NCBI GenBank assembly: GCA_947460255.1
Contig: CANHIS010000021.1
Coordinates: 1-43,559, forward strand
DNA: 43,559 nt
Direction: 5' to 3'
Source of the DNA: Bacteroidota bacterium
Lineage (GTDB): Bacteria; Bacteroidota; Bacteroidia; M30B66
Both the position numbers and the translations under genes were made by a program. Of the stretch, positions 969-34,700 are shown piece by piece. The notes beneath the pieces are model-generated. The model saw only the letters and a list, made by a program, of their open reading frames with translations. It was not told the DNA's origin and did not search any database. Numbering within the stretch: position 1 is the first letter of the stretch; each line of letters starts with the position of its first letter.

Positions 969-1012
969 ATAGTTGAGTGAAATCAATTGTTATCTTTACC
1001 GAGAGAAACAGA

Positions 1013-2125
1013 ATGAATTTCGATTCAATGTTGAAGACTTCAAAATGGATATTGGTGCTTTTGTGCTGTATTGCAACTGAAATAATGCAAGCACAAAATA
1101 ATAGGTTGAAGGATATAAGATTTCAAACTGAATATCAATACGGATATATTTTACCTGAATATTCGAATCTTAATTATCTGCTAAACGCTCCAGTTCAAGC
1201 AGTTAATTTAAGTGTAATCAAACAGTCGATTGGAAAAACTGAGTGGGAAGAATTGTACAAATATCCTCAATTTGGACTTTCTTTTTTTTATACCACTTTG
1301 GGAAATGATGAAGTAAATGGTAGAGAGTGGGCAGTTTATCCATTTTTCAGATTTAATATAATTCAATACAAGAGAATTAGTTGGTTTTTACAAACTGGAA
1401 TTGGTTTTGGAAGAGTGAGTAAGAAGTTTGATTTGGCAGATAATTATCTGAATATCACCACCGGATCGAAAAACAATATTCATTACAATTTGAAATCAGG
1501 CATTGAATTTAAATTGAATGATCATCTTCGAATTAATGCAGGAATTGGCTTGGATCATTTTTCGAATGGAAATACCAAAGAACCAAATTTAGGATTGAAT
1601 TCACTTACATCTATCATTGGATTGAGTATTCAGCCATATAAATCGAGTGAAAAAATTAAAAATGAATTCTCGAAACATGAGGTTCGAAATCGGCCTGAGT
1701 TAAGTGTGAGATTTGGAGGAAAAAGAGCGCGTGCTTTGGCTTCGCAGTATTTTAATACAGCCACAATATCATTTGCAGTTCATCGAAATATTTATCGAGC
1801 ATTTCATTTAGGCGTTGGAATTGATGGATTTTATGATTCATCCACGGAAACAGAAATGATTGCTGCGAAATCTGGTCCTTACAAAGGATCAAATGATTTT
1901 CAAACAGGAATTTCTGTGTCACAATCTATTGTTTACAATAAATTAAGAATCATCTTTCAAGAAGGCATTTATGTTGGATTAACTTATAAAGTAAAGCGCC
2001 ATCCAATATATACGAGAGGAACTGTGAGCTATCAAATTACGGATCCATTAGCAGTGAGTATTTCTATGAAATCGCATTTACATGTTTTAGATTACCCAGA
2101 AATTGGAATTAACTACAGATGGTGA
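1013..2125 (+). CDS. PagL-like lipid A 3-O-deacylase (acyloxyacyl hydrolase family)
   Basis: A predicted outer membrane beta-barrel enzyme that removes an acyl chain from lipid A. A hydrophobic signal peptide ending near MQA-Q is followed by alternating beta-strands. The diagnostic motif L-D-H-F-S-N-G-N followed by E-P-N-L-G-L-N is present; in PagL the His and Ser of HxS are catalytic (here about H182 and S184). At 370 aa it is longer than PagL proper (about 150-190 aa), with an additional C-terminal barrel-like half, as in many Bacteroidota homologues. The start is uncertain: ATG at 1013 or 1028, and a GTG at 977 would give a poor signal peptide. A TATCTTTA -7-like box (991-998) lies just upstream, but its TTG partner is only 15 nt away. 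It overlaps the next gene by 7 nt. Confidence 0.75.
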   Translation: MNFDSMLKTSKWILVLLCCIATEIMQAQNNRLKDIRFQTEYQYGYILPEYSNLNYLLNAPVQAVNLSVIKQSIGKTEWEELYKYPQFGLSFFYTTLGNDEVNGREWAVYPFFRFNIIQYKRISWFLQTGIGFGRVSKKFDLADNYLNITTGSKNNIHYNLKSGIEFKLNDHLRINAGIGLDHFSNGNTKEPNLGLNSLTSIIGLSIQPYKSSEKIKNEFSKHEVRNRPELSVRFGGKRARALASQYFNTATISFAVHRNIYRAFHLGVGIDGFYDSSTETEMIAAKSGPYKGSNDFQTGISVSQSIVYNKLRIIFQEGIYVGLTYKVKRHPIYTRGTVSYQITDPLAVSISMKSHLHVLDYPEIGINYRW

Positions 2126-2847
2126 AAATGAAAGGGATTGGAAAAACTGTTTTAGGAATTGGAATGTTGTTTTTGCTTTCAAACTGCAAGAAGAGTAATG
2201 ATTCTGTAGAAATTAAAAAAGATGAATTATCGGCATTTAAAGAAATTGAATTGAACGATGCCTTTGATGTTGTTCTTTATCAAGACAGTGTGTTTTCAAT
2301 TCAAATCGAAGCAAATGAGAAATTCATTGATGCAGTTGAATATTCAGTTCAGGACAGTATTTTAAAAGTAGATTACGCATCGGGTAAAAGATGGAGAAAT
2401 CCTGAAATAAATAAAGTGAAATTGATTATTCGAGGGGATAGGCCACGAAAATTACAAGCCAATGAGAGCTGCTTCGTTAGAACTGGAAATGAAATTGTAT
2501 CTGATGAATTTGGCTTGGTGTTGTTCGGTAAATTAAATCAGGCGGATTTACAATTGGGAGGAAGAGTGTTTTATTACTGGAACAATCATCCTTGTGGTGG
2601 TAGAGTAAAATTGACAGGAAAAGTTGATCAATTGAAATTGTGGAATTTTGCTATTATGCAAGTGGATGCGTCGGCTTGTGAAAGCAGATATGGATTGGTG
2701 GAAAATTATTCGAAAGGTGAATGTAAAATACACATCACCGAAAAACTTGATTACAGTTTGGTTGGAGAAGGCAATATCATCCTAAAGGGAAATCCAGAAT
2801 TACAATTACTTCAAGAAAATTCCTCTGGAATATTGATTTACGAATAA
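2119..2847 (+). CDS. DUF2807 (GIN-domain) lipoprotein
   Basis: A lipoprotein of 242 aa with a signal sequence ending in the lipobox L-L-S-N-C-K-K, so it is probably anchored in the outer membrane. The body (from A-F-K-E-I-E-L-N-D-A-F-D-V onward) matches the start of the DUF2807 'putative auto-transporter adhesin, head GIN' family, a right-handed beta-helix fold common in Bacteroidota. No enzymatic function is known. The start overlaps the end of the PagL-like gene by 7 nt (or follows it by 2 nt if the second ATG at 2128 is used), so the two are probably co-transcribed. It converges on proC with only 9 nt between stop codons, and I see no terminator hairpin there. Confidence 0.75.
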   Translation: MVKMKGIGKTVLGIGMLFLLSNCKKSNDSVEIKKDELSAFKEIELNDAFDVVLYQDSVFSIQIEANEKFIDAVEYSVQDSILKVDYASGKRWRNPEINKVKLIIRGDRPRKLQANESCFVRTGNEIVSDEFGLVLFGKLNQADLQLGGRVFYYWNNHPCGGRVKLTGKVDQLKLWNFAIMQVDASACESRYGLVENYSKGECKIHITEKLDYSLVGEGNIILKGNPELQLLQENSSGILIYE

Positions 2848-6710: not shown

Positions 6711-7142
6711 ATGAGCACATTGAAGCAACTATTTTTTGTTTTATTCATAAATATATCAAGCATAGCTTTTGCTGGTATTTCCAATAAAGCGGATACAGTT
6801 GATGTACATGAAGTATACCGATACATTAAATGCAGTGGAATTCTTTATCCAGACATTGTTCTAAGGCAGGCTATTTGGGAAACAGGATGGTTTAAATCGA
6901 AACACTCTATACAAAAGAATAACTTGTTTGGATTTCGATATTCAAAAAAATATATGTCGTTTGATAGCTGGAAGGCTTGCATAGATTATTACAAAAGTTG
7001 GCAATTAAGAAAATATACGAATCCGGATGAAGATTATTATAAATTTCTAATTCGGATCAAATATGCCACATCTCAAAAATATATCAGCAGCTTGAAAAGT
7101 CTTAAAATAGAGATTCCTGAGGTAAACTGTGATGAAGAATAA
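6711..7142 (+). CDS. Exported glucosaminidase-domain protein
   Basis: A 143-aa protein with an N-terminal signal peptide ending near A-F-A-G. The rest fits a compact mannosyl-glycoprotein endo-beta-N-acetylglucosaminidase (FlgJ/Glucosaminidase) domain: R-Q-A-I-W-E-T-G-W carries the expected catalytic Glu (E57), followed by N-N-L-F-G-F and a Y-S-S-L-type C-terminus. Such enzymes cut the glycan chain of peptidoglycan in the periplasm. It overlaps the next gene by 11 nt (to the ATG at 7132), and the whole four-gene unit to 11211 is on one strand, which links this lytic enzyme to the SGNH/MBOAT genes. Confidence 0.75.
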   Translation: MSTLKQLFFVLFINISSIAFAGISNKADTVDVHEVYRYIKCSGILYPDIVLRQAIWETGWFKSKHSIQKNNLFGFRYSKKYMSFDSWKACIDYYKSWQLRKYTNPDEDYYKFLIRIKYATSQKYISSLKSLKIEIPEVNCDEE

Positions 7143-8502
7143 AATCCACGAACCTTTACTTATCTTGTTATTCTCCAGTGCAATTCTTGCAATGGTATCA
7201 TTTATTCCAAAAGGTTTAACCAACTTTGAATTGCCTGATTATTTAAGTGATTTAAGAGAAACAGAAAAGAAACAAACGATACACCCCGAGCAAAAGAAAT
7301 ACAAAGGCCAGAGGGATTCTTCATTCATTGCACCAGCAAAAATGCTTGCAGATACAACTGTAAACAGTTTTGGTGATTTAACTAAATTCTTCGAAGCTCT
7401 TTATGCATTGCAAACAAATCCAAATGCAATTCATATCGCATATTTCGGAGACTCCATGATTGAAGGCGATTTAATTACCATGGATTTACGTTCGATGCTT
7501 CAAAAAAGATTTGGAGGAAGAGGTGTTGGTTTCATGCCTATGACGTCTATCACAGCGGGTTTTAGATCAACCATCAAACATGAATTTAACGATTTGTGGC
7601 TTACGAGTAACTTCAATGAAAAAACAGTAAAGGGCAAATCTTTGGGATGGAGTGGATTCTGCTTTACTGCGCCTCAAGGAGCAAACACTACTTACAAAAA
7701 AGCCAAAGGTTATTCTGCATTTAACCACGTAAAGGCTTATCTAAGAAATGCATTTCCAACAAACCTAGAAATCACTGCTGGAGAGAATACTTTTGAATTA
7801 AACTTAGCAGTTTCTGATTCGATCCAAACAATAGAAATCAGCGATAGCTTAGAGTTTGATAAATTAAAGATTGAAGTAAAGTCAGGTAATACTGATTTTT
7901 ATGGATTAAATTTTGAAAATGGAAATGGGATTTATGTTGATAATTACTCATTCAGAGGAAATTCAGGAATTCCCTTGAACACAATTGATGACAACATTTT
8001 TGCTTTTGCATCAAAAAACTTGAATTGCAAACTTGTTGTTTTACATTATGGCTTGAACGTTGTGGGGCATGAATCGGGAGATTACTCCTGGTATTTGTCA
8101 CCATTTCGGAAAACAATAAGAAAAATTAAAGCTGCCTTTCCCAATGCAACAATTGTTTTAGCAAGTGTTGGGGATAAATCGTATAAATATGGAAATCAAT
8201 ATCACACAGAACCTGATATCCCATTGTTTGTTGGCATGCAAGTTAAATTGGCACGTGAAGAGAATATTGTTTTTTGGAACATGTACAAAGCGATGGGCGG
8301 ATATGATAGTATGAAGCGATGGGTGGAGGAAAGTCCGAAGAAAGCAGCTAAAGATTACACACACTTGAACCATGCAGGAGCTAAGGAAATCGCAACGCTA
8401 TTCTATGATTGGCTGATGGAAGAATACAATACATTTTTGCAAAAGAAATTAGAGGAGGTTTCGGAATCAAATCCGAAGAATAAAGAAATTTTGATTCAAT
8501 GA
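7132..8502 (+). CDS. Exported SGNH/GDSL-like protein 1 (MBOAT-associated)
   Basis: A single N-terminal hydrophobic segment (about residues 8-26) acts as a membrane anchor or signal peptide, followed by a charged linker. Block I is A-Y-F-G-D-S-M (Ser about 108), block III/IV regions contain L-H-Y-G-L-N, and block V has D-Y-T-H-L-N (Asp 408, His 411), so the Ser/Asp/His triad is intact. Proteins of this shape next to an MBOAT act as extracytoplasmic O-acetyltransferases or esterases on cell-surface glycans (AlgX/AlgJ, PatB as precedents). I chose the ATG at 7132 over the GTG one codon before. The stop overlaps the next start (ATGA). Confidence 0.75.
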   Translation: MKNKIHEPLLILLFSSAILAMVSFIPKGLTNFELPDYLSDLRETEKKQTIHPEQKKYKGQRDSSFIAPAKMLADTTVNSFGDLTKFFEALYALQTNPNAIHIAYFGDSMIEGDLITMDLRSMLQKRFGGRGVGFMPMTSITAGFRSTIKHEFNDLWLTSNFNEKTVKGKSLGWSGFCFTAPQGANTTYKKAKGYSAFNHVKAYLRNAFPTNLEITAGENTFELNLAVSDSIQTIEISDSLEFDKLKIEVKSGNTDFYGLNFENGNGIYVDNYSFRGNSGIPLNTIDDNIFAFASKNLNCKLVVLHYGLNVVGHESGDYSWYLSPFRKTIRKIKAAFPNATIVLASVGDKSYKYGNQYHTEPDIPLFVGMQVKLAREENIVFWNMYKAMGGYDSMKRWVEESPKKAAKDYTHLNHAGAKEIATLFYDWLMEEYNTFLQKKLEEVSESNPKNKEILIQ

Positions 8503-9737
8503 AAAGGACGATAATACTATTCTTGCTGATTTCATTCAAAATGTATGGTCAAAACGATAGTTTACCATTCATTCGCGACTCATTTAATGTTATTCAAAAT
8601 GCATCAGGATTAGATAAATATTTTAAATCCATAAAATCTTATAAAAACAAATCATCAAATGAAATTAATATTGTTCATGTTGGAGATTCGCATGTTCAAG
8701 CGGGTTTTTATAGTGAGCCTATTAGAAAAGACCTTCAAGCAAAACTAGGAAACGGGGGCAGAGGTTTGGTATTTCCATATCAAGCAGCTAAAACAAATGG
8801 TCCAACAGATTATTCATTTTCATCAAATCAAACCTGGAAAGCCAAAAGGAATTGTATTGAAAAGGGGAATCTTCCTACAGGAATATCGGGGCATGCCATT
8901 TATAACAATTCCAAAGCAGCTGTTTTGACCTTTAAACCTCGAGATAGAAACTTGATAGGCAAACCAACAGAAATTGAAATCTATCATCTTTCCAATCTTG
9001 ACAGCAATTTCACGTATCAAATTACCGATAGCTTAGGACAAATAATTGGTAGCATTGATACGATTAAGAGCACTCCTACCAAGTCAGTTTTCAAAGTTTC
9101 GAAACCTGTATTTCAATGGAATATCATTCCGAATTTAACAAATGACACCGGCAAGTCATCTACTATTTTGGGCATGAATTTGATTAACAACGCTGGCCTA
9201 AAGATGCATACAATTGGTGTAAATGGTGCTGAATATAAACACTATCTCAGAAGTGAATTTTTCAACATACAATTAAAAGAATTAAATCCTGATTTAATTA
9301 TAGTTTCATTGGGCACAAACGAAGCCTATAACACAAAAGACTTTGATCCAATTAAGTTTGAAGCTATCGTTGATTCATTTATAGTTATAACCAAATTAAA
9401 TAATGAAAATGCATCGATTTTACTCGCTTCGCCTCCTAGCATTGGACAAGCAACAGTAACTCGAAATAAGAAAAAAAGGAAGGTTTATCAATACACAGAA
9501 AACAAGAATATTCCGATAGTTTGTGAAATATTGCAGCGACAAGCAATTAAGCATCAATGTGCATACTGGAACTTTTACGAAGTAATGGGTGGGTACAATT
9601 CAATAAATAAGTGGTTTGCAAAAGGAATGACAGATAAACGGAGGATTCATTTCAGCAAAAAAGGATACCTAATTCAAGGCAATTTACTCAAGAATGCTTT
9701 AAATTCTGAGATGCAACAAAAAATAATTCAAGAGTAA
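8499..9737 (+). CDS. Exported SGNH/GDSL-like protein 2 (MBOAT-associated)
   Basis: A 412-aa protein with signal peptide (cleavage near M-Y-G-Q). Block I is V-H-V-G-D-S-H (Ser 64), the block III region is S-L-G-T-N-E, and the C-terminal block V has H384 in R-R-I-H-F-S-K-K-G-Y. The Asp usually three residues before this His is Arg381; a nearby Asp379 might substitute. Its start overlaps the stop of SGNH protein 1 by 4 nt, so the two are translationally coupled and probably work together. Likely role: acetyl transfer to, or binding of, a periplasmic glycan with the MBOAT protein downstream. Confidence 0.75.
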   Translation: MKRTIILFLLISFKMYGQNDSLPFIRDSFNVIQNASGLDKYFKSIKSYKNKSSNEINIVHVGDSHVQAGFYSEPIRKDLQAKLGNGGRGLVFPYQAAKTNGPTDYSFSSNQTWKAKRNCIEKGNLPTGISGHAIYNNSKAAVLTFKPRDRNLIGKPTEIEIYHLSNLDSNFTYQITDSLGQIIGSIDTIKSTPTKSVFKVSKPVFQWNIIPNLTNDTGKSSTILGMNLINNAGLKMHTIGVNGAEYKHYLRSEFFNIQLKELNPDLIIVSLGTNEAYNTKDFDPIKFEAIVDSFIVITKLNNENASILLASPPSIGQATVTRNKKKRKVYQYTENKNIPIVCEILQRQAIKHQCAYWNFYEVMGGYNSINKWFAKGMTDKRRIHFSKKGYLIQGNLLKNALNSEMQQKIIQE

Positions 9738-9738
9738 T

Positions 9739-11211
9739 ATGCTTGATTTGGATCGTTTATTATCACTATTGGTCTATAATCCTGATGATCGACTACTGTT
9801 CAACTCAGGTTTTTTTCTGTATTTTTTACTGATCTTTTTCATTGGATACTTTTCACTGAAGAAATACTCAAACGCAAGAATTGCATTTGTATCATTGTTC
9901 TCGCTTTACTTCTTCTATAAAGCTTGTGGATGGTATGTGGGCTTGGTCATTCTTGCTGCAGTGGTTGACTTCAATTTGAGCACAATCATTTACAAATCAA
10001 GACACAAAGCAAAAAGAAAATCACTTTTAATTTTTAGTTTAATTTTAAACTTAGGATTACTAGGGTATTTCAAATACACTGACTTTTTTATTGGAATAAT
10101 CAATGACATTCAGAACAAAGACATTCAACCGCTTAAACTAATATTACCTGTTGGGATTTCCTTTTACACTTTTGAAAATATCAGCTACACAATAGACATT
10201 TACCGCAGAAGCTGCAAGCCAGTGAAGCGGTTTATGGACTATTTGTACTTCTTATCATTTTTCCCAAAGTTGATGATGGGTCCTATTGTGAGGGCTGCAG
10301 ATTTTATTCCTCAAATAAGAAAACCAGTTTGGCTTACCGGTGAAGATGTTTCAAAAGGTTTGTTTTTAATTCTAACTGGGTGCTTTAAAAAAGTCGTTAT
10401 ATCTGATTATTTGAGCACACATTTAGTGAATAGTGTTTTTGATGATCCATTACGATATTCTGGAATAGAGTGTTTAATGGCTGTTTATGGATACGCACTT
10501 GTGATATATTGTGACTTCAGCGGTTATTCTGACATGGCCATTGGAATTGCCAAATGGATGGGCATTGATGTGAATATCAACTTCAATGCACCTTATCAAA
10601 GTAAATCAATCACAGAATTTTGGAGAAGGTGGCATATTTCATTATCGAGTTGGCTTCGAGATTACCTATACATTTCGTTAGGAGGGAATAGAAAAGGAAA
10701 GCTAAGAACCTATTTCAATTTGATTGTAACAATGGTCATTGGAGGTTTTTGGCATGGAGCAAGTTGGAATTTTATTTTTTGGGGTGCTGCGCATGGAATT
10801 ATCCTCGCAATTGAAAAACTTTGGAAAGACAATAGAAAACCTTCAACTCAGCAAAGTGGCTTCCTGATTAGAATGTTCCAAACCTTCATCACCTTCCACA
10901 TTGTTTGTGCTTTGTGGGTTTTCTTTAAAGCTGAGTCTTTCAGTATTTCATTGGATATGTTTAAACAAATAATATATGGTTTAGACATTTCAATCCTTCC
11001 AGCCTTCTGGAAAGCATATCAAGGAACGATTTTAATTATGGTTGGTGCATTTATTCTTCATGCTTTTCCAATGAAATGGAATGATAATGTAATTTCAATT
11101 TCAACTAAATTGCATTGGACGGTAAAAATGCTTGGAATGACGATCGTTCTTGCTTTGATGTACTATTTCAACACTGCAGGACAAGTGCTACCAATTTACC
11201 TTCAATTTTAA
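9739..11211 (+). CDS. MBOAT O-acyltransferase (AlgI/PatA-like)
   Basis: A polytopic inner membrane protein of 490 aa with about ten hydrophobic segments. Diagnostic MBOAT motifs: S-F-Y-T-F-E-N near residue 140, P-K-L-M-M-G-P-I-V-R, C-D-F-S-G-Y-S-D-M-A, E-F-W-R-R-W-H-I-S-L-S-S-W and G-G-F-W-H-G-A-S-W containing the conserved catalytic His. These proteins move acetyl groups from cytoplasmic acetyl-CoA across the membrane to partners that modify alginate, peptidoglycan or other polymers. It starts 1 nt after the SGNH protein 2 stop. The substrate is unknown. Confidence 0.9.
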   Translation: MLDLDRLLSLLVYNPDDRLLFNSGFFLYFLLIFFIGYFSLKKYSNARIAFVSLFSLYFFYKACGWYVGLVILAAVVDFNLSTIIYKSRHKAKRKSLLIFSLILNLGLLGYFKYTDFFIGIINDIQNKDIQPLKLILPVGISFYTFENISYTIDIYRRSCKPVKRFMDYLYFLSFFPKLMMGPIVRAADFIPQIRKPVWLTGEDVSKGLFLILTGCFKKVVISDYLSTHLVNSVFDDPLRYSGIECLMAVYGYALVIYCDFSGYSDMAIGIAKWMGIDVNINFNAPYQSKSITEFWRRWHISLSSWLRDYLYISLGGNRKGKLRTYFNLIVTMVIGGFWHGASWNFIFWGAAHGIILAIEKLWKDNRKPSTQQSGFLIRMFQTFITFHIVCALWVFFKAESFSISLDMFKQIIYGLDISILPAFWKAYQGTILIMVGAFILHAFPMKWNDNVISISTKLHWTVKMLGMTIVLALMYYFNTAGQVLPIYLQF

Positions 11212-12069: not shown

Positions 12070-13740
12070 ATGCTTTCCAGAATCCTTGCGCTTACAGTAA
12101 TTTTGATATCCTCAGCGGAATTGCTGGGTCAAGATCTGGAAGGCATTCGTAACAAAAAACCATTGGAATTCGGAGGCAGTCTTTCAGCTTTTGCAGATGG
12201 CTATTTTGTAGATGGAATCGCACCACGCAGCACGCCATTCAATTGGAGATTAACGGGAAGCCCAACACTTACTATATACGGAATTACACTGCCATTTTAT
12301 TTTAATATTGGTTCTCAGGCACGAAACTTTACACAACCATTCAATCAGTTTGGCGTGAGTCCGAAGTACAAATGGGCAACAGCTCATCTTGGATGGAGAA
12401 ACCTAACATATTCACAATACACGCTTTCTGGTATTTCATTCTTTGGAGCTGGTGTTGAATTGAATCCTGGCAAATTTAGGTTTTCCGCCATGTACGGTCG
12501 ATTTAATAGAGCGATCAGATTTGATACAATACCACAACAATTTGTAACACCTGAGCCAGTATACGAAAGAAAAGGCTTTAGCACCAGAATCGGATTTGGA
12601 AATGCATCAAATTTTTTAGATTTCATTTTCTTCAAAGCGAAGGATGATTCGAGTTCATTCCAAAATGCGCCATATAAAATCAAACCAGCAGAAAACGCCA
12701 TTTTTGGAATTACATCCCGGTTGCTTCTCTTCAAACATCTTCAAATACATTTAGATGGAGCATTGAGCGGATATACAAGAGATTTAAGATCCGATTCAGT
12801 TTCTGATGAATCATTGCAACGACTAGACTTTATCCTAAAAACAAATGCGTCCTCGCAATTACTATTTGCAGGAAATGCAAGTTTGGGATATGTATCAAAA
12901 TATTTTGGTTTGAAAGTGCAGTATAGACGAGTAGATCAGGATTATAAATCCATGGGATCCTTTCAATATCAAACAGATATACAAGCCATTACGGTAGAAC
13001 CATCTATAAACATCCTAAAAAGTAAAATCAGATTAAGTGGAAGTATTGGACAGCAATCAGACAATATCTCCAGGTCTAAAATGATTGCTACTTCAAGAAC
13101 CATAGGATCAGTGAATTTAAGTCTAAATCCTAGCAGAAAATATGGATTAGACATTCAATACGGTAATTACGGAGTTACCCAAAGAGCAGGCATCATCCCA
13201 TTAAACGACACAATTAGAATGGCCATAGCCAATCAAAACGTGAATGTGATTAATCGTTTCACTACGATCAATAAAACACGTGCATTAACAATTGTATTGC
13301 TCAATACTTACCAAGAAATGACCAATTTAAATCCTCTGTTTCCTGCATTTATTGAAAGTCAGGTCATCATTGGAAACTTAAATGTTAATTATACAATGAT
13401 TAGGAATGGTATTAATTTGAGTGGAGGATATAACTATAGCAGAAGTTCGTTTTCCCAAGGTATCATTGAACTGAGTGGACCAATCATTGGCTTCGGAAAA
13501 AATATGCTTAAGAATAGAATGAACGCATCAGTTAGCGGTGGATTTCAATCGAGTAAATTCAATGGAAATTCGAATGGAATTACAATTAATTCTGGGGTTA
13601 ACTTAAATTATAGAATTTCAAAATCAAACAATTTCACCTTGAATTTTAGGTTGATTAAAAACACTTCCAACAATCCTGTTTCAGTTCCATTTACAGAAGG
13701 ATTTATCTCAGCTGGTTATCAGTACACACTCGGAAAATGA
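12070..13740 (+). CDS. Predicted outer membrane beta-barrel protein, first gene of three-gene module
   Basis: A 556-aa protein with signal peptide (cleavage near L-L-G-Q) and, over its whole length, alternating hydrophobic/polar strands with turns, ending in an aromatic-rich strand S-A-G-Y-Q-Y-T-L-G-K. This pattern fits an outer membrane beta-barrel of roughly 20 or more strands. No TonB box, plug or OmpA domain is visible. I do not recognise a named family. The upstream promoter fixes the start at 12070. Its stop overlaps the start of the 2232-aa gene (ATGATG), so the pair is translationally coupled; the barrel may serve as the membrane partner or exporter of the giant protein, which is inference from context. 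Confidence 0.7.
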   Translation: MLSRILALTVILISSAELLGQDLEGIRNKKPLEFGGSLSAFADGYFVDGIAPRSTPFNWRLTGSPTLTIYGITLPFYFNIGSQARNFTQPFNQFGVSPKYKWATAHLGWRNLTYSQYTLSGISFFGAGVELNPGKFRFSAMYGRFNRAIRFDTIPQQFVTPEPVYERKGFSTRIGFGNASNFLDFIFFKAKDDSSSFQNAPYKIKPAENAIFGITSRLLLFKHLQIHLDGALSGYTRDLRSDSVSDESLQRLDFILKTNASSQLLFAGNASLGYVSKYFGLKVQYRRVDQDYKSMGSFQYQTDIQAITVEPSINILKSKIRLSGSIGQQSDNISRSKMIATSRTIGSVNLSLNPSRKYGLDIQYGNYGVTQRAGIIPLNDTIRMAIANQNVNVINRFTTINKTRALTIVLLNTYQEMTNLNPLFPAFIESQVIIGNLNVNYTMIRNGINLSGGYNYSRSSFSQGIIELSGPIIGFGKNMLKNRMNASVSGGFQSSKFNGNSNGITINSGVNLNYRISKSNNFTLNFRLIKNTSNNPVSVPFTEGFISAGYQYTLGK

Positions 13741-16700
13741 TGAAATTTCAAATAAATTCAAGTCAAAAAATGTTTAGAATTGCTGCGTTTATTGTTTTTA
13801 GTATTGCTCTAATATTAGGAAAAAGCAATAAACTGAAGGCACAAGGTCAACCGATAAACATAAGCATTTCGGTAAATCCACCATATTCTGTGGATGCTTT
13901 GGATTACTTCAATTCTCCAACACAAACCACACTCACGCTGGTAAATACCTCGCAGCAAGCTCAAAGTGTATTTCTTGCTGGAAGTTTAAGAAATCTTAGC
14001 ACAGATCAAAGCGTTACCATTCGAAATGATATAATACCGGCAGTACCGGCACTTGTATTAAACCCAGGAGTAACTGTGATGACTGGTGTTGATTTACAAA
14101 TATATGTGGATGAAGCTGCTCTTCAATTTGCAGGAATTACCCAACAAGAAGCGCTCAATGGAAATTTGCCAGAAGGAGAATATCAATTGTGTTTGCAAGC
14201 ATATGATTATTCGAATTTAGAATTGCGATCTCAGACAGAACCTTTGGGATGTTCAAATATTTTCACCATTCAATTTGTTCAACCGCCGCTTTTAATTACA
14301 CCAACGTGTTCAACAGAAGTTTCATTTAGCAATCCTCAAAACGTAGTATTCAGCTGGGTTCCACCTTCGGTAGCAATAAATCCAGCATTTCTAAATTATG
14401 AGTTTAAATTAATTGAAGTTCCTCAAGGAATGAATGCAATTGCAGCAATGAATGCCGTTGGAGTTCCAGTAATTACATTGAATACGAACTTCACCACGAT
14501 TGTTTATTCTGCAATTAATCCAACATTAAATCCTGGACGACTTTATGCATGGCGAGTAAAAGTTACTGATGCATCAGGAACTGTGGCGTTTTCTAACAAT
14601 GGAATAAGTGAAATTTGTGAATTTACTTATGGCCTTCCTTTCACTCCTGATTTACCCAATCGAGGAAAACTAATTTATCCAGTACCTGGAAAAAGAACTC
14701 CATTTAGAAATGTTCCAATGATTGTTCAATATGAGCCATATGATTCAACATTCAGAAGCTATAATTTCAGAACAACAATAACAGAAAATGGAGAACAACA
14801 CGATCTCATTGAGAATACAGTGAATTGGCCCAATGGAGCAGAAACATTTTTACAGCAACAACTTACATTTCCGCCATCATTGTTGCAATTAACGAGCCTT
14901 CAGGTTGGACGAAATTTAATTACATCTCCAGGATCAACAACACTTAGAGCCAATAAAACATACAATTTAAACAGCGCAATTACTTTCACGAAGAATGATG
15001 GAACAGAAGAAATTGTCCAAATAAATGACAATTTTACTCAAGGATTTGAAAAACCCTTGCTCAAGCAACCAGCGAGAGATACTGCCATTTTAAATCGTGT
15101 GGTTAAATTCAAATTCACCAATTCTGATACTGTGAGATTTAATCCTGGTGATGCGGGTTTAATTCCACCTTCTGAAGTAACAAAAGCACTAAAAGGAACC
15201 AGTGATAAATTATTCAAAGCAGAAGTAAGAGAACGATATCGAATTGAAGTATCTAAAACAATTCAATTTGATACCATAATTGCAGCCGGAAGTAATTTAT
15301 TTAATGCGTCGTTTAATGTTGTTCCTGGAAACATCAGTAATTTCCTTAAGAATACGATTTACAAAGAACTTGAACATGAACTTTATTTACCTGACACTGG
15401 ACAATATTACTGGCGTGTTCATTGGCTAACTGATGTTGCAGACACAGCATCAATACCATATGAAACTAGCGCGATTCAATCCTTCAGAATATTCAATGCG
15501 CCTTCGGCAGATAGCATCAGCAGTGCTTGTGTCGACGATTGTAATGCACCAATAATTACGAATCGAAACCCTTCAACCGACCTGCAGCCGGAGCAAATCG
15601 TACGTGTTGGAAAATTCCAAATGACTGTTAGATCCGTTAATTTCAATGGACCAATGGCAAGTGGACTAGGTGAAATCAGAGTGCCATTCATGAATACAGT
15701 TGTGAAGGTTCAATTTTCTGAAGCCTTAATTAATTCGGAAAAACAACTTTACCAAGGAAATGCAGTCGCACGCTACGATACCATTGGTTTTATGCCCAAT
15801 ATTCCTGGATTGGGGAAACTCACAGTCACAAATGCCAGAGAATTGCTGAAATATGTTGAGAATGATAGATATGCTTCTGTTTTCGATCCAAACATCCCAA
15901 TGGGACTTCCGCTAGGATTAGACAAAGAATACACAGGAGAAAGATTTATGATTGCCATAGTTGGTATAAATTTCAATTCTGAAAGAGCGACATTGGCCGC
16001 TGCTGCAAGTGTAGAACTTCCTTTCCTTGATGATCGCTTGTCGGATGGTGGAAAATACTCCGTCGGACTTGGGGCTTCAGATATTTGTTTTCATCCTGAT
16101 GGATTAGCAGGAACAGGATTAGGTGCACTTTACCTTACCGATCCAGTTGAAATTCCATATTCGGAAGGACAATATGTGATGCTAAAAAATTCAATCATTG
16201 ATCCATCAACGGGTTCAGTTGCAGATTCAGGCACTTACTACAGCTGGGATTGTCATGGTTTCAGACTTTTGCATGTGGAAGGTGAAGTTTCATTTAGCGA
16301 TTCAGTTTTAATTAAAGCTTCGAACAATAACAGCAAAGCGTTAGGTGATGTAAAGGCGAGATTTGGATTTAATGTGAGGAGATCAGGAAACTGGCTTGCG
16401 TCAATCGATGTAGATCCATTTCAAATACCAGGATTAGAAGATTGGAATTTCATTATTGATGAGGCAACAATGGATTTTAGTGATTTAGAAAATCCGCAAT
16501 CGATGGTATTTCCGGCAAATTATCCTGGGGAAAGAAGCACGTTATGGAATGGTTTTCATTTCAAAAGTTTAAGGGTCGGATTGCCAAAGAATTTCAAAAT
16601 TAGAACACCAGAAACCGATGTAGCATTAACAGATTCATTGCTAAAGGATCGTGTTGTAATTGGAATTAACAATGTTTTAATAGATAGAAGTGGTGTTTCA

Positions 16701-19700
16701 GGAAAATTGGAAGCACTTCGGTTATTGGAAATTGAAAATGGAATGCTTGGTGAATGGGGATTTGGCATTGATACCATGAGCATTGAAATTACTTCCAACA
16801 GTTTTGTTCGAGGTGGATTTTCAGGGAAATTAATTACTCCACTCTCCCCTACTCGAATTAAATACGCGTCAATTTTATCACAAGGAGCCAACAATGCAGG
16901 ACTAACCTATCAATTTAATGTAAAGCTTGATACGCTTACTGTTCCAATTTGGGCAGCAAATATGACTTTATTGCCTACTTCTCATATTGCTGTAACGATT
17001 ACATCTCAATCGTTTACACCCGAATTAAATCTGAATGGATCTTTTGATATCACAAGGAAAATTGGGGAAATTCCTGTAAAATTCGCTGGAGTTCAATTTC
17101 AGCAGTTAAAATTATCATCCACTGCACCTTATTTATCTTGCAATTCATTTGCCTTTGCTAGTCCGCAGAAGGAAATGTCGGGATTCCCAGTAACCATAAG
17201 TAATATAAATCTTGGGCAACAAGATTTCCATGGCTTGTTTAGTTGGGATGATGCGCCTGGACCAAGGATGGCTCTGAATTTTACATTAAATGTGAATTTT
17301 ACAGGTGAAGCAAATACATTCGGAGGAAGCACTACACTTGCGGTTCTAGGAAGATTTAAGCCTGGATCAATACTTGGAGGTGATGAAGAAAATCCATGGC
17401 CAAGTTTAGCATTATCGGGTGTTGACTTGAAAAGCATCAATATTCAAGGTGATTTAGGTTTCGTGGAATTAAAAGGATATGTGAATTTTTATGCACAAGA
17501 TTCTATCTATGGACAAGGCTTTAATGGCGGAATTGAAGCTACATTCATCAAAACAATTAAAGTTTCTGTAGTTGGTGGATTTGGCGAAATAAATGAGATG
17601 CGTTATTGGTATGTAGATGCCATGACCAAATTCGTTCCTGGAATTCCAATGGGAATTACACCGTATCAAATTCCTATGGATATTTATGGATTTGGTGGTG
17701 GTGCATTTTATAAGATGCGACTGGCAGATCCTCCGCCACCGGCTGGCAATATAAGTACAGCTGCTGCGCCAACGACACCGCCACCTGGAACTACATTAAC
17801 AAATGTTCGCTTGGTGCCCGATGAAAATACGTTATTCGGTTTAAAAGCCACGGTGATAATTGGAACTACTGGCGGTGGACAAGCATTTAATGCCGACATT
17901 ACACTTACCGCAACATTTAATAATTCAGGAGGTATATCTCAAATTGCATTCGATGGTGATGGATATTTCATGACCTCGGTAATGGACAGAAGTTTTACTG
18001 CAGTGAGAGCAGGAGTTTTGTTGCAATACGATTTTAATGCAAAAATTCTCACTGGAAATTTTGATGTGATGATTAATGTTCCACTGACATTAAAGGGCCG
18101 ACAAGACAACAACATTGCAGGAAATGCATATTTGTATGTTGGTCCAGACAAGTGGCAAATTTTAGTTGGGGAACCCGTTCCAGATGCAGCAAGAGTTGGT
18201 GTGAGATTAGCAAATTCATTTGATGCAAGTGGATATTTAATGGCAGGAGAGGAATTACCTGCACCACCTCCTCCTCCATCCAAAGTTTTAGAAATCTTGG
18301 GAGAATTAAATTCAGTAAGAAGTCCAGGCATTTCTAACGGTACAGGATTCGCATTCGGAGCTTCATTTCAACCGCCAAAAATCCAAACTGAGATTTCGCC
18401 ATTCTACTGTAATTTGGATGCAGAAGTTGGGTTTGATATGAATTTGTTTGACTATGGATCTACACGTTGTGATGGTATGAATCCAGGTGAACGAATGGGC
18501 ATAAATGGATGGTACGCCAATGGCTCAATTTGGGGCTATTTTGATGGAAATATCGGTATCGAAGCGAACATTTTCGGTGATATTCAGAAGTACAATATCC
18601 TAAATGTAAAAGCTGCAGTTTTGATGCAAGCGGGCTTTCCAAATCCTTACTGGATAAAAGGAACATTAGGTGGAAGTTATACTTTGTTGGGCGGATTAAT
18701 TGAAGGAAATTGCAGATATAAAATAGAACTCGGCGATTTTTGCGCACCTGCTCCAGAAACGCCTATATCTGGTGTTAAAATGATTTCTGAAGTTTCCCCA
18801 GCCAATGCACTAGCAGATGTTGACTGTGGAATTTCTCCCGGAGCTATTTTCAATGTTGATGTTAACAAGGTGTTTGATCTACCTGAAAATGCATCAGACG
18901 GTTCCGTAATAAACAGGAAATTCAGATTTATAATTGAGAATTTTAGCCTACGTAAAAGCAGTGCATCTGGAACAATTATTACCACTACACAATCAACAAG
19001 TTTAGATGGCTCACAAGCCATGTTAAGCACTGCTGATTTGTTGGATGCCTACACAAATTATTTCATTTCAATTACAATTGTGGCTCAAGAATTTATCAAC
19101 GGATCATGGAGAACAGCGAAGCGGAATAACAATACTGAAATTCGTGAAATTGTATCACAAAGCTTTAAAACTGGAGCTAGACCTGATAAAATTAGAGACC
19201 AAGATGTTTTGTATTGCTATCCATTTAATAAGCAGCGCTATTTCGTGAAAGACAATACCGAATTCGGCTTGATTAAATTGAAGTATTCAATGGCATATTT
19301 ATTTAACACAGCGCCAGCTGTAGGATACAATAGAACCTACCATGTAACATTTCAACCAACAACTGGAGGAACTCCAATTGAAAAAACTGTTACATACGTT
19401 AGTTCAGAAAATAGAGTCAAATTTGATATGCCCGTATTAAATCCAAATACAATTTACCGAATTAGAATTCTACACAGGGATACCAGAAATCAAACAGCAT
19501 CTAATAGTTCGAATTTATTGGGTAATGGTTTTCAATTAGCCAATAATCAATTTGTGTCGATATTGGGCGACAATGTACTTATCAGAAACAGAAGATTTTC
19601 TGAAAATCAGATGATCAGAGATAACGAACATCTCCTTTATGAGTATTATTTCAGAACCTCTGGCTTCTCAACTTATACAAGCAAAATAAATGCGCTTTCC

Positions 19701-20435
19701 GTTACAGGTACAAGCAGAGAATTTAGCAGTCCGATTGAGAATTTAGTCCTAAAAATGGGAGGAAATGAAGGTTTCGAAAAATTTGAGGTGGATGGATTCC
19801 TTTATGTTATAGGCTTTCAAACCAATTACTTAAAAAGATTAGAAATAAAAGATGCTTATTCGAATACCGCTTGGCATTTTAATTTCTTGAAATCTTCGAT
19901 GTATGACCTTTATTCTCAAGTGGTGAACAACAATTATTCAACCTTAAGATTCGGCAGGTCAAATCCTGATGAAATTGGCATTCCTCCAACAAAAATTGAA
20001 GCCTCCTATCAAACAAAAGGACCTCTAACAGCAAGTGAAATAAATCCTTCAGCGGAGAACAGTACCAGTCAAAATCTCACTGTACAAAACCCAGGAATGA
20101 ATCTTGGCTTCTTCAATCAATCGCAACCAGAACAAATGTTGATTCTCTCAACTTCTTATTGGGCAAGAGAAGATTACAACGACTTGAAAGCCATCGTTGC
20201 GAATATGAAAATTAGATATGGCAGCAGTTTAAATGGTGTGAATACATTTACAAAATCAAAGATTTCAGCATTCAACAATATTACATCCTACAAATACATG
20301 TCGACTGGAAATTACGATGTAAAATTCACAACAAAACATATCACAGGAAGTGCAAATTCTTTGAGTCCAATTATTCTCACAAAGACCTTCAATTACCCGC
20401 AAACAATCACACTCATGCAATTTGTTACCTTCTGA
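13737..20435 (+). CDS. Giant exported protein (2232 aa), second gene of three-gene module
   Basis: The N-terminal signal peptide ends near residue 35 (L-K-A-Q-G). Residues about 36-290 resemble two immunoglobulin/fibronectin-like beta domains (F-S-W-V-P-P and L-Y-A-W-R-V-K-V are FN3-like). Another FN3-like stretch near residues 440-580 has Y-Y-W-R-V-H-W. Residues about 620-1320 are long repetitive amphipathic beta-strands. Two proline-rich linkers (about 1331-1350 and 1504-1514) bracket a further beta domain, followed by Cys-containing segments and a C-terminal beta-rich region. No T9SS sorting domain, enzyme motif or transmembrane helix is apparent. Overlaps the upstream barrel gene by 4 nt and the downstream FN3 gene by 1 nt. 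Function unknown; a surface-exposed structural or adhesive polymer is the simplest guess. Confidence 0.75.
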   Translation: MMKFQINSSQKMFRIAAFIVFSIALILGKSNKLKAQGQPINISISVNPPYSVDALDYFNSPTQTTLTLVNTSQQAQSVFLAGSLRNLSTDQSVTIRNDIIPAVPALVLNPGVTVMTGVDLQIYVDEAALQFAGITQQEALNGNLPEGEYQLCLQAYDYSNLELRSQTEPLGCSNIFTIQFVQPPLLITPTCSTEVSFSNPQNVVFSWVPPSVAINPAFLNYEFKLIEVPQGMNAIAAMNAVGVPVITLNTNFTTIVYSAINPTLNPGRLYAWRVKVTDASGTVAFSNNGISEICEFTYGLPFTPDLPNRGKLIYPVPGKRTPFRNVPMIVQYEPYDSTFRSYNFRTTITENGEQHDLIENTVNWPNGAETFLQQQLTFPPSLLQLTSLQVGRNLITSPGSTTLRANKTYNLNSAITFTKNDGTEEIVQINDNFTQGFEKPLLKQPARDTAILNRVVKFKFTNSDTVRFNPGDAGLIPPSEVTKALKGTSDKLFKAEVRERYRIEVSKTIQFDTIIAAGSNLFNASFNVVPGNISNFLKNTIYKELEHELYLPDTGQYYWRVHWLTDVADTASIPYETSAIQSFRIFNAPSADSISSACVDDCNAPIITNRNPSTDLQPEQIVRVGKFQMTVRSVNFNGPMASGLGEIRVPFMNTVVKVQFSEALINSEKQLYQGNAVARYDTIGFMPNIPGLGKLTVTNARELLKYVENDRYASVFDPNIPMGLPLGLDKEYTGERFMIAIVGINFNSERATLAAAASVELPFLDDRLSDGGKYSVGLGASDICFHPDGLAGTGLGALYLTDPVEIPYSEGQYVMLKNSIIDPSTGSVADSGTYYSWDCHGFRLLHVEGEVSFSDSVLIKASNNNSKALGDVKARFGFNVRRSGNWLASIDVDPFQIPGLEDWNFIIDEATMDFSDLENPQSMVFPANYPGERSTLWNGFHFKSLRVGLPKNFKIRTPETDVALTDSLLKDRVVIGINNVLIDRSGVSGKLEALRLLEIENGMLGEWGFGIDTMSIEITSNSFVRGGFSGKLITPLSPTRIKYASILSQGANNAGLTYQFNVKLDTLTVPIWAANMTLLPTSHIAVTITSQSFTPELNLNGSFDITRKIGEIPVKFAGVQFQQLKLSSTAPYLSCNSFAFASPQKEMSGFPVTISNINLGQQDFHGLFSWDDAPGPRMALNFTLNVNFTGEANTFGGSTTLAVLGRFKPGSILGGDEENPWPSLALSGVDLKSINIQGDLGFVELKGYVNFYAQDSIYGQGFNGGIEATFIKTIKVSVVGGFGEINEMRYWYVDAMTKFVPGIPMGITPYQIPMDIYGFGGGAFYKMRLADPPPPAGNISTAAAPTTPPPGTTLTNVRLVPDENTLFGLKATVIIGTTGGGQAFNADITLTATFNNSGGISQIAFDGDGYFMTSVMDRSFTAVRAGVLLQYDFNAKILTGNFDVMINVPLTLKGRQDNNIAGNAYLYVGPDKWQILVGEPVPDAARVGVRLANSFDASGYLMAGEELPAPPPPPSKVLEILGELNSVRSPGISNGTGFAFGASFQPPKIQTEISPFYCNLDAEVGFDMNLFDYGSTRCDGMNPGERMGINGWYANGSIWGYFDGNIGIEANIFGDIQKYNILNVKAAVLMQAGFPNPYWIKGTLGGSYTLLGGLIEGNCRYKIELGDFCAPAPETPISGVKMISEVSPANALADVDCGISPGAIFNVDVNKVFDLPENASDGSVINRKFRFIIENFSLRKSSASGTIITTTQSTSLDGSQAMLSTADLLDAYTNYFISITIVAQEFINGSWRTAKRNNNTEIREIVSQSFKTGARPDKIRDQDVLYCYPFNKQRYFVKDNTEFGLIKLKYSMAYLFNTAPAVGYNRTYHVTFQPTTGGTPIEKTVTYVSSENRVKFDMPVLNPNTIYRIRILHRDTRNQTASNSSNLLGNGFQLANNQFVSILGDNVLIRNRRFSENQMIRDNEHLLYEYYFRTSGFSTYTSKINALSVTGTSREFSSPIENLVLKMGGNEGFEKFEVDGFLYVIGFQTNYLKRLEIKDAYSNTAWHFNFLKSSMYDLYSQVVNNNYSTLRFGRSNPDEIGIPPTKIEASYQTKGPLTASEINPSAENSTSQNLTVQNPGMNLGFFNQSQPEQMLILSTSYWAREDYNDLKAIVANMKIRYGSSLNGVNTFTKSKISAFNNITSYKYMSTGNYDVKFTTKHITGSANSLSPIILTKTFNYPQTITLMQFVTF

Positions 20436-22561
20436 TGAAAAAGCAACAACTATCTAATGCTAACTTCTTGCATAATTTAATTGTGATTGGAACCATTGTG
20501 CTTAGTACAATTTGCAGTTCTGCTATTGGACAAATCAGCAATCAACCCAATACACAAGATACTGCCTTGATACAAATCATTTCGAAAGTATCGGCAGACA
20601 GTCTTGTTCTTCGCTGGGCACCAAACCATCCTGGAGCTTGGGAACAAGCACTTACAGTTGGTTACACAATTGAAAGAGCCGAAATTCCAACCGATAGCAC
20701 GCGGCAAATACAAATTGAAAAATTGAGCAATCCAAGCATTCTTCCGTTGCCAAAAGAAAGTTGGAAATTAATCTTCAAATCCGACAATACAATGGCTGCA
20801 TTGGCCGCTAGTCAGATTTACATAAATCAGGGTTCACAATTATCAATTGATCCAATTGCCCTTCAAACCAAGCAAAATGAATTGCTGAACCGACATGGTT
20901 TTACATTGTTTGCATCCGATCGAGATCTAAAGGTTTCTATCGCTTCGGGCTTGGGATATATTGATAAATCCTACAAAAAAGGGGCGAATTACTTGTATCG
21001 AATTTATTTCACAAAACCATTAGTGGGAATTTATGCAGATACTGCGCTGATATTTATTAATACAGGAGAAATAGATAAAACTCCACTCACAAGAACTCCC
21101 GCCGTAAATGCAGGTGACAGCAAAATCGAATTAAGATGGGATGCAGGAGTTAAAAGTGGATTTAGTGGTTTTTATGTGGAAAGATCTGCTGCAGGTAAAA
21201 ATGAATTTAAAAGACTAAATACCGAGCCCATCGTGAGTTTCAGGAATGAAAATAAGGAACAAAACATGAGCTATTTTATAGATTCAATTTCCAACTACAT
21301 TTCATATGATTACAGATTAATTGGTCTCACGGCATTCGGAGAAATGAGTCAGCCATCTGAACCAATTCGTGCCATGGCCACCGATCAAACACCTCCATTA
21401 TCGGCAGTAATTACTGCTGTTAAAAATGAAGATAAATCCAAACTAAGAATCAATTGGGTATTTCCACAAAAATCCGCTGATTTTGATCACATCACCATTG
21501 CGAGAAGTTTGAACAACGATGGTCCATTTCAGAATATTAGTCAATCGTTAAATAAAGAGCTTACAACCTATCTCGACGAAAATCCGGAGCCACATCAAGG
21601 CAATTTCTATGTTGTATTGTGTTATGATACAGCTGGTAATATTTCGAAATCACTACCATTTTATGGCATTGTACAAGATGATACACCACCAGAAATTCCA
21701 TTGAATTTATCAGGTTATATTGATACATCTTCGGTTGTTCATTTAAATTGGAATTTAGGAAAGGAAAAAGACTTGCAAGGATACCGAGTGTACTATTCTA
21801 ATTCTCCAGATCATGAATTCAGCAACATTACTCCTCAAATATTGAAGGATACTATTTTTCTAGATACTATTCAAAAACGAACCTTATCGAAGCATATTTA
21901 CTACAGAATTGCAGCAGTCGACAATAACTACAATCACTCAAAATTATCTCCTTGGATACAAGTTAAACGACTTGATGTAATTGCTCCTGTGGCTCCAATT
22001 TTCAGCGCAATTGAGGTACTTGATACGGCTGTTGTTTTAAAGTGGATTAATAGCAGCAGTGATGATGTTCAATCGCAATATCTATATCGAAAAATGCAAG
22101 GAGAAAGTGATTGGACAATGCTCAACAAATACGAAAATCATCCTTTCCCAACTGTATTTTTGGATCGCAATTTTGAGAAAAAGAAATTCTATGAATACAA
22201 ATTGCAAGCATTGGATAGTAGTGGATTAAAATCTGAATTTTCACCCATAGGAAGCGTTAGAACCTACGACAATGGTTTGAGAAAGGGTGTTACAGAATTT
22301 GCATTGTTGTTCGATAAAGAAAAGGGCAAGAACGTACTCAATTGGAAATATGAAGAAAAGGGAGATTACCAATTTTGGATTTATAGATCAGTTAAAAATC
22401 AACCGATCACCAAACACAAAGTTGTAAAAGGAGATTCCAGAATGTTTGAAGAAGAAGTGGTAAATGGAGTCAACAATCAATACCAATATGCTGTGAAAGT
22501 TGTGTATAAAAACGGTGGAGAATCGCCACTTTCGCCTATTCGGGTACTTGAAACGAAATAA
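20435..22561 (+). CDS. Exported fibronectin type III repeat protein, third gene of three-gene module
   Basis: A 708-aa protein with signal peptide (cleavage near S-A-I-G-Q). From about residue 220 it contains four or five FN3-like repeats of roughly 95-100 aa, recognisable by the L-x-W strand (I-E-L-R-W-D, L-R-I-N-W-V, V-H-L-N-W-N, V-V-L-K-W-I, N-V-L-N-W-K) and the later Y-x-Y/Y-x-V strand. The 200-aa N-terminal region has a further L-V-L-R-W segment and is otherwise unrecognised. No T9SS sorting domain is visible. The start codon overlaps the stop of the giant gene (TGATG). FN3 arrays are typical protein- or glycan-binding modules, so this may cap or cross-link the giant protein; that is inferred. 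Confidence 0.75.
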   Translation: MKKQQLSNANFLHNLIVIGTIVLSTICSSAIGQISNQPNTQDTALIQIISKVSADSLVLRWAPNHPGAWEQALTVGYTIERAEIPTDSTRQIQIEKLSNPSILPLPKESWKLIFKSDNTMAALAASQIYINQGSQLSIDPIALQTKQNELLNRHGFTLFASDRDLKVSIASGLGYIDKSYKKGANYLYRIYFTKPLVGIYADTALIFINTGEIDKTPLTRTPAVNAGDSKIELRWDAGVKSGFSGFYVERSAAGKNEFKRLNTEPIVSFRNENKEQNMSYFIDSISNYISYDYRLIGLTAFGEMSQPSEPIRAMATDQTPPLSAVITAVKNEDKSKLRINWVFPQKSADFDHITIARSLNNDGPFQNISQSLNKELTTYLDENPEPHQGNFYVVLCYDTAGNISKSLPFYGIVQDDTPPEIPLNLSGYIDTSSVVHLNWNLGKEKDLQGYRVYYSNSPDHEFSNITPQILKDTIFLDTIQKRTLSKHIYYRIAAVDNNYNHSKLSPWIQVKRLDVIAPVAPIFSAIEVLDTAVVLKWINSSSDDVQSQYLYRKMQGESDWTMLNKYENHPFPTVFLDRNFEKKKFYEYKLQALDSSGLKSEFSPIGSVRTYDNGLRKGVTEFALLFDKEKGKNVLNWKYEEKGDYQFWIYRSVKNQPITKHKVVKGDSRMFEEEVVNGVNNQYQYAVKVVYKNGGESPLSPIRVLETK

Positions 22562-31701: not shown

Positions 31702-34700
31702 TTAACGAATCAAAGTAATCGAACCAGTCTTCGTGAACCAATTGTTGTTCATCCATTGTACTTCGATAATCCAGCCATAAACATCCGACTGCACCATGCG
31801 TCCTTCGAAAGTTCCGTCCCAACCTTTGTCGATATCATCAGATTCAAAAATCACCTTTCCTCGTCCATCGTAAACCCACAATTTGTAAGTCTTCACACCA
31901 TTACCACGAGGAAGAAAAACTTCATTTAATCCATCGCCATTCACAGTAAATCCTGAAGGAACAAACAAATTATATGGTTCTTCCAAGCAAATCGTGCGAC
32001 TATACACATCGCTACAACCGTTGCTATCGGCTACTTCGAGAGTTACTTCATAACCACCATGCAGAATGTATTCATGTGTTGGATTTGAACCTGCTGTATA
32101 AATTAACTCCTGTGCATCACCAAACGACCACAATCCCTGACTAGCTCCGGTACTCAAATCGATGAAATTGATATCTCGAATTTCGGCTGGAATACACTCC
32201 AAATCAGGATTAACGCTAAACTGTGCTTTCACCAACGGGAAGCCAGGCAAGGTAACGGATGAATCCAATGTGCAACCACTTGCTGGATCGGTCACTTCGA
32301 GCGCGTATGTATTTGACGCAACTCCAGACAAACTTTCGCCCGATTGGTATTCATTTCCTCTCCAATTAACGCCATAAGATTGAGCCGAAACGGGTGTGAC
32401 GGTCGCGAAACTAGGTTCACCATAACACAGTCTTTCCTCGGTTTCAATGGTAAAATCGATCTTATCAGCCACATAAATAGAAACCGTATCCCGAATGCGT
32501 GAGCATCCATCTGTAATGGTTAAAGTGTAGTCTTTGCTAATCGGTGGACTCAAGATCTGCTGTTGCAAAGGCGGTAGATTGTCGCTCCAGATGTAACTGA
32601 TAAAATGTCCATTTCCACCCCAAGCGGAGACATTTACAGAAGTGTAATCTCCATAACAAAGCGAATCATCGTTCACGGCAACTTCATAGCCAATACGCGG
32701 TGCCACGGTTACAATAGCCGAATCAACGCTGCGGCAATATCCTTCTCCAACTTCATAGATCAATAAGTGTTCGCCCTCATCAGCCAAATAAGGATTGAAA
32801 AACAAGGTATCCACCAGGCCAATTCCTGTGAGCGTTCCACCGAGCGGACTCACCTCTATTTCCAACAAAGTATCTACATAACAAACAGAACCACCTGGCG
32901 CGTCTAGATCGGCTTGAATGAATGGCTCTACCTCAACAGAAATAGTATCGGAACAACCATAATTGCTCGTGTAGATGAGCTCAATTTCACCATCACCAGC
33001 TTCCGATGGTGAGAAAATCCCCAAACTGTCATTCACGATTCCATCACCCGAAAAGATCCCTGGCAATGCGCTAGACTCGACTACAATTTGAATTTCCGGT
33101 GCTGATTCACAAATGGTTTCAGCTGGTGCTAACATCGATTGTTGCACAAAAAACCAAGCTGTATCGGCGCATGTATTGTTCGTGTATACCACCTGATGAA
33201 TCCCATTACCCGCAACATTTGTGTAGAAATAATCAGGTTCATCATCCTCTCCTTCTACAACACCCAAACCCGACCAACTACCGCCCCAAGGGTAATTCCC
33301 CATAATACTTCGAACCAATTCCAATTCATTGTCACCCTTACAAAACACAAAGGTATCCTGCTCAATACGTGTGTATTCTACATAAACAATCGCCGTATCG
33401 GTGCAGCCATTTGCTAAGGTGTAAATCACATCGGTTTGAAAGTTTTGACCTCCATTAAAGGTTGCATCTAACAAGCCATTTGTTGGATCTACGATGCCAT
33501 CGCCCGACCAAGTACCACCAATTGGATAAAAGTTCGCCAATTGAACAGTGCCTTCGGCAGGACAAGAATTCGAATTCCAACCTGCAAAGATCTCACGTAC
33601 AAATACATCCACGTCTTGAGAACATCCAAACAGGCTGTAAGTGATGGTGTGTAAGCCGCCTTCAGCTTCACCAGGATCGAATGTGCCCAAAAGAGAATCA
33701 ACAATTCCAGGTCCCGACCATCTTCCACCAGGAGGTTGCAATGTATACGAAATAGACGCTCCGCTTTGACAGATGCTGTCGATCGCCGTTGGAACACTCG
33801 AGATATTGTCGACAAAAATCTGCAAATCTTCTGTACATCCGTTCACTGAATACGTAACAGTGAAAACTCCATTTACCGTTGGATCAAACACACCCGAAGT
33901 GCTAATTCCACTGCCCGACCAGGTTCCACCTAAAGGAGTGAATCCATTCAATTGGAAAGATGGTGAGCCCGGACAAGCTGCCACTGGCAAGCCTGCATCA
34001 ATAGGTAAAATGTTGATCGCCACATAGGAAGAACATCCAAAAGTTTCGGTGATCGGTAAGTAATAGCCTACCTGATTGATTCCTGATGCGGCAGAATCTC
34101 CGTTGAAAGTCCCAACCAATGTATCGGTAATGCCCGAACCAAACCACCAGCCTGTATTGGGAGTCGCATCCAAATCCACCGGAGGTGCAGATTGGCATTG
34201 ACTAATTGCTTGAGGCATCACAGCCGGAGTGAATACCGTTATCGTAGTACTTCCAGAAGCAGGAACCGCAGGCGAAGTGTCATCTACAGTTAAGGTGTAA
34301 GTTGTCGTGGCTACAGGACATACATTCTGTGGACCAGCATTGGGCGGAAGACCATTCGACCAAGAGTATGAATACACCCCATTTCCACCTGTTACCACAG
34401 CTTCAATCTCGGTGCATTCACCTACGCAAATACTATCTCGATCAGGAAATAAATTCACGACAATCGGACAATCGTCAACGCGAAATGAATCGACCGTGGT
34501 GAAGGTCCACAAACTGTCGCAAGCATCGTAGTAATTGGTTGTTAGTTCAAGCTGGTAAGTGCCGCCCTGATTGAGTCCAGGCGAAAAAGTGAGTGCAACT
34601 TGCTGGGTACTGTCGCCGATGCAATTCACAGGCGAAGCCGACATAATCGCTTGGTCCATCAACCCTTCTAGGATTTCGGGACCTAATAGTTCGAAAGCTC

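Follow-up and report, generated by a model that had tools for sequence, protein, structure and literature searches.

Two described systems of Bacteroidota come closest to the locus considered here. TANFOR regions were published as the leading part of polymorphic toxins of Bacteroidetes, for which export by the type IX secretion system (T9SS) was suggested on the grounds of neighbouring genes and of a T9SS being present in >95% of the genomes; FN3 and T9SS-substrate genes were enriched nearby, and no barrel was mentioned (Jana, Salomon, Bosis 2020, PMC7073777). PorP/SprF barrels, in turn, serve cargo carrying a type B C-terminal domain (CTD): genes of SprF-type shuttles lie immediately downstream of those of their substrates and are required for substrate secretion (PMC12618676), and the shuttles bind their substrates (PMC9143113). 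The window analysed in this study, i.e., positions 1-43,559 of contig CANHIS010000021.1 of a Bacteroidota bacterium (GenBank assembly GCA_947460255.1), carries a cassette of three genes that encode a predicted outer-membrane barrel, a giant exported protein, and an FN3 protein. As in the TANFOR toxins, an N-terminal signal and TANFOR front a very large protein, and FN3 and T9SS-substrate genes are found close by in the family; the barrel partner and the barrel–giant–FN3 order are not in that paper, and the operonic giants differ from the toxins in their body, in having no recognised toxin domain, and in their conserved tails. As with PorP/SprF, a barrel gene stands beside a large putative surface cargo, the two diverge together, and several members of the barrel family directly follow a CTD gene. 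Unlike PorP/SprF, the present barrel has 556 residues and ~25 predicted strands, and its cargo would be marked by an N-terminal TANFOR instead of a C-terminal CTD. Taken together, the data presented below single out the barrel as a strong candidate for the partner of TANFOR proteins in the outer membrane.

The TANFOR model TIGR02542 matched the giant at residues 40–178 with 32.4 bits (E 7.7e-8 with the whole protein, E 4.1e-9 with the N-terminal piece of residues ~21–305 alone), a match that had been missed in the initial annotation of the window. Although this score is below the NCBI cut-off of 67 bits, homology was clear nonetheless: the model was matched by 12 of 16 relatives (best E 1.1e-11), and hhalign of this region against an unlinked TANFOR protein (L163) gave 100%. 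Judged by sequence similarity, the N-terminus of the giant is thus a divergent TANFOR region, and the initial statement that no named system applied does not hold for this part, which belongs to the published family (PMC7073777).

The three genes are an ancient, widely kept operonic unit in Bacteroidota. A giant homologue was found in 19 of 40 relatives, and barrel, giant, and FN3 genes lay together in the fetched neighbourhoods. A GTDB scan seeded with a smaller barrel alignment (A6) yielded 448 relatives, of which 80 loci were fetched; the gene right after the barrel on the same strand encoded a giant with a TANFOR N-terminus in 79 of these, and the order held for 105 of 128 non-redundant barrels overall. 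An FN3 gene came next in 85 of the 91 testable loci (directly in 76, within three genes in 9), and the median intergenic gap in the cassettes was 3 nt. Barrel–TANFOR loci occurred in Pedobacter, Mucilaginibacter, Spirosoma, Larkinella, Dyadobacter, and Runella, as well as in records of Ignavibacteria and Kapaibacterium. The gene order suspected in the initial annotation was hence recovered across the phylum, and its view of the barrel as outer-membrane partner within one functional unit is supported.

Barrel and TANFOR also belong together beyond their adjacency. A survey of 395 genomes, sampled evenly across the class, detected 74 strong barrels in 61 genomes; 50 of these barrels were ≤3 kb from a TANFOR gene, 49 on the same strand; strong TANFOR matches were present in 59 genomes and both in 55 (Fisher p ~1e-55). 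Within families whose TANFOR gene is mostly unlinked, 14 co-occurrences were observed where 5.7 were expected (p 4e-8, which is optimistic given shared ancestry within genera). Divergence of the two proteins was parallel, with a Mantel r of 0.93 (as high in 0/999 permutations), to which shared organismal descent contributes. When pairs were swapped inside genomes, the summed correlation favoured the matched pairs in six of eight comparisons and not in two. Furthermore, TANFOR and barrel were fused in a single open reading frame (ORF) of 1390–1396 aa in two loci (L045:4572-8762 and L046:5301-9473, both minus strand), which count as one event since both are from one genus.

The AlphaFold2 (AF2) model of the barrel (predicted local distance difference test (pLDDT) 84.7, predicted template modelling score (pTM) 0.72) comprised ~25 predicted strands and no plug, in support of the beta-barrel initially read from the sequence. 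Its best matches among solved structures were MtrB of the Mtr complex (6r2q) and the FimD usher, at a TM-score of about 0.5 at best and 11% identity. In both, a sizeable barrel holds a bulky protein partner or lets it pass, as proposed here; their partners and gene context are unrelated, and according to the model the likeness is one of large barrel size, not kinship. The barrel alignment (A1) contained 14 invariant positions. No Pfam or NCBIfam family matched the barrel at E 1, and usher, POTRA, or ShlB domains were not found in it (Pfam, E 1). The family is undescribed: neither it nor the barrel–TANFOR pairing nor the three-gene order was found in the literature searched (subscription journals and preprints excluded). 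The cassette is not categorically new, as TANFOR proteins were known before and so were cognate shuttle barrels.

We favour, with a probability of roughly 55%, the reading that TANFOR giants are exported or anchored by the barrel as their dedicated partner in the outer membrane, most likely via the T9SS. The three cassette proteins would cross the inner membrane via Sec, and the barrel would insert in the outer membrane as a dedicated shuttle, anchor, or sheath for proteins starting with TANFOR. The giant would be its cargo, held at the cell surface by docking of TANFOR to the barrel, and the ~1000-residue all-beta region of the giant (termed CORE), together with the FN3 protein, would make up the rest of an exposed or envelope-spanning structure. 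Export would most likely proceed through the type IX translocon, the barrel perhaps being to TANFOR proteins what PorP/SprF is to type B CTD proteins; docking, surface location, and use of the T9SS are what we infer here. A T9SS-linked anchor or shuttle role is favoured by barrels right behind CTD genes, which is the SprB–SprF arrangement. Such a position was found for 11 of the 17 barrels that are followed by neither TANFOR nor CORE (eight of the 11 CTDs are above curated cut-offs, and part of the training set of our own CTD model came from these); the window barrel has no CTD gene directly beside it.

Several observations weigh against this reading. The type A model is the one matched by the CTDs beside the barrels, and cargo of type A usually goes by way of PorV; the PorV model NF033710 matched in no genome searched and was hence uninformative. 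No CTD was found on the giant (Pfam, NCBIfam), and the barrel has a strand number far above that of PorP/SprF and no match to the PorP_SprF sequence family (Pfam/NCBIfam, E 1). SprA was present in 61/61 barrel genomes and in 8/8 named carriers, which cannot discriminate, as it was found in 385/395 genomes (97%) anyway; for the same reason, the T9SS in >95% of TANFOR genomes (PMC7073777) carries little weight. Finally, the cassette is intact in one draft genome (G561, locus L196), where a barrel, a TANFOR frame of 2774 aa, and an FN3 gene were found with GldL present and SprA undetected; this makes strict SprA dependence doubtful, though a single draft is no proof. Several genomes of its genus lack SprA yet have GldL, which is odd in itself; TIGR04183 matches in this genus were restricted to one short ORF of 136–183 aa per genome and were not counted as cargo.

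The best-surviving alternative, tentative in our view, is that TANFOR proteins exit from the periplasm through the barrel, which would itself act as their pore, independently of the T9SS. The wide, plug-less barrel with FimD and MtrB as nearest folds would suit such a role, as would the intact cassette without detectable SprA and the giant without CTD. Against it, GldL is still encoded in that draft genome, and in its family, the one with mixed SprA, the barrel was less frequent in SprA-negative (1/21) than in SprA-positive genomes (28/160), though not significantly (p 0.21). A pore would also need to be reconciled with the absence of any periplasmic energy or targeting domain (POTRA, usher N-domain) among those searched for in the barrel and with the barrels beside CTD genes, which point to the T9SS. 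Owing to the latter, the export system with its own pore envisaged in the initial annotation is possible and not favoured. A broader proposal, which we regard as doubtful, has the barrel at the core of an undescribed Bacteroidota outer-membrane export route that would read the N-terminal TANFOR, could work without the SprA translocon, and would serve giant surface proteins, TANFOR toxins encoded elsewhere, and, through the distant barrel–TANFOR branch described below, RHS-type toxins.

That the giant is a TANFOR polymorphic toxin and the cassette its delivery system is unlikely. Its TANFOR region is homologous to that of toxin-bearing proteins. Where barrel, CORE, and FN3 genes have no adjoining TANFOR, the genome often encodes one at another site. 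In two such genomes (G180 and G151), CORE of the cassette shares 96% identity, and the unlinked TANFOR proteins agree at 94% up to residue ~1170; beyond it, neither the C-termini nor the genes downstream are related, and one of the two proteins ends in a TNT toxin domain. By sequence, these proteins fit the published polymorphic-toxin pattern (PMC7073777). Operonic giants, however, gave no toxin family in their last 380 residues (0/78), and the tail of the window giant is conserved to its end in L025 (45% identity), over 500 residues in L069, and over 300–500 residues in other relatives. Downstream of the giant, no immunity-like gene was found in the window, where the FN3 gene and then a TonB-dependent receptor gene follow, and the window genome had no second TANFOR protein. 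The window giant is therefore probably not a toxin. The cassette may come with a surface giant of its own in some lineages and, as we infer, serve toxins encoded elsewhere in others. In a further locus (L175:8888-13499), a CORE gene and a TANFOR gene are followed by a 784-aa ORF and four tandem similar ORFs (149–292 aa) that look like immunity paralogues.

Less likely again is a periplasm-spanning or lipid-handling structure in which CORE forms a long beta sheet across the envelope with the barrel at its outer-membrane end. The AF2 model of CORE was indeed a run of ~55 long strands, but its confidence was limited (pLDDT 73, pTM 0.45), and the fold search gave no convincing match, the best (LptD and ApoB) having TM-scores < 0.2; in addition, the TANFOR region carries toxins in other genomes, and toxins must leave the cell. 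A PDB sequence search with the giant returned no match. CORE is encoded by a separate gene of ~980–1100 aa between barrel and FN3 in other genomes (e.g., G180, G151, G218, L060), and 53 of the 78 complete operonic giants have a second body type without CORE match, 52 of them forming one family. One weak hhalign match (69% probability) near the C-terminal ends suggests that the two body types may be distantly related. Mere coincidence of three adjacent genes found nothing in its favour and is refuted by conserved order, co-occurrence, and parallel divergence, the observation being far beyond chance given a 2232-codon ORF, relatives of the giant at 24–53% identity, and a gene order kept in hundreds of genomes.

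The features of the cassette are listed in Table 1. Overlapping codons were read directly (ATGA at 13737-13740 between barrel and giant, TGATG at 20433-20437 between giant and FN3 gene), confirming the initial gene layout; an alternative in-frame TTG start of the barrel gene is possible at 12016. Other initial claims stood likewise: all three proteins have a hydrophobic N-terminus with a signal-peptidase-like GQ/AQ site, read by eye and thus a putative signal peptide, no T9SS sorting domain (type A or B) or enzyme family was found in them (Pfam, NCBIfam), and the giant contains two proline-rich linkers (ADPPPPAG..., ELPAPPPPPS). The third protein had a significant FN3 match (PF00041, 34.4 bits); in the giant, for which FN3-like ends had been proposed, FN3 stayed below threshold. 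A promoter and terminator scan performed no better than chance, and short direct repeats inside the giant gene also looked like chance.

Table 1 Features of the barrel–giant–FN3 cassette, with positions in the window
Feature	Position	Strand	Content or basis
Outer-membrane barrel (predicted), 556 aa	12070-13740	+	ORF; ATG at 12070
Giant exported protein, 2232 aa	13737-20435	+	signal, TANFOR region, Fn3-like domain, CORE, C-terminal tail
N-terminal TANFOR and Fn3-like region, residues ~21-305	13797-14651	+	TIGR02542 match; alignment A2
CORE, ~1000-residue all-beta region, residues 691-1700, with two Pro-rich linkers	15807-18836	+	homology and AF2
C-terminal tail of giant	18837-20432	+	conservation in relatives; no toxin family
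FN3 protein, 708 aa; third cassette gene	20435-22561	+	PF00041 match

The TonB-dependent receptor gene starts 107 bases 3′ of the FN3 gene and is not part of the unit in the fetched neighbourhoods of relatives. The stretch immediately upstream (7129-11211, plus strand) carries, one after the other, genes for two GDSL-type acylhydrolases and an MBOAT acyltransferase, probably a surface-glycan O-acetylation set. At 977-2847 (plus strand), a PagL-like lipid A deacylase gene overlaps a DUF2807 (GIN domain) gene, and at 31702-35235 (minus strand) lies the gene of a 1177-aa protein with SprB repeat, PKD, and CHU_C T9SS signal, a close relative of which adjoins the cassette in another locus (L021). 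Histidine kinase and/or LuxR- or LytTR-like response-regulator genes were located near the barrel in a set of loci (L139, L093, L096, L092, L111, L196, L197), and collagen-like (GPxG) proteins were encoded directly upstream of it in Pedobacter-type loci, which suggests regulated expression. A distant branch of the barrel–TANFOR pair (L041-L043, L047, L051, L061-L065) showed the order 690–900 aa barrel, ~360–390 aa TANFOR-like protein, small lipoprotein-like gene, and two very large proteins. The first of these (2200–2400 aa) starts ...AYALTSGPSQPE..., and the last protein (1800–3300 aa) has DUF6443 and/or RHS matches in four loci and a Tox-MPTase3 end in one; this resembles an RHS toxin locus of several genes that has a barrel–TANFOR pair to itself.

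For the exit of TANFOR toxins from the cell, a specific barrel that tracks TANFOR even when unlinked offers an outer-membrane partner that can be named and tested. Should the barrel be a shuttle, the N-terminal TANFOR would be a second kind of cargo mark in a system believed to recognise signals at the C-terminus; should it be a pore, it would represent a new secretion route.
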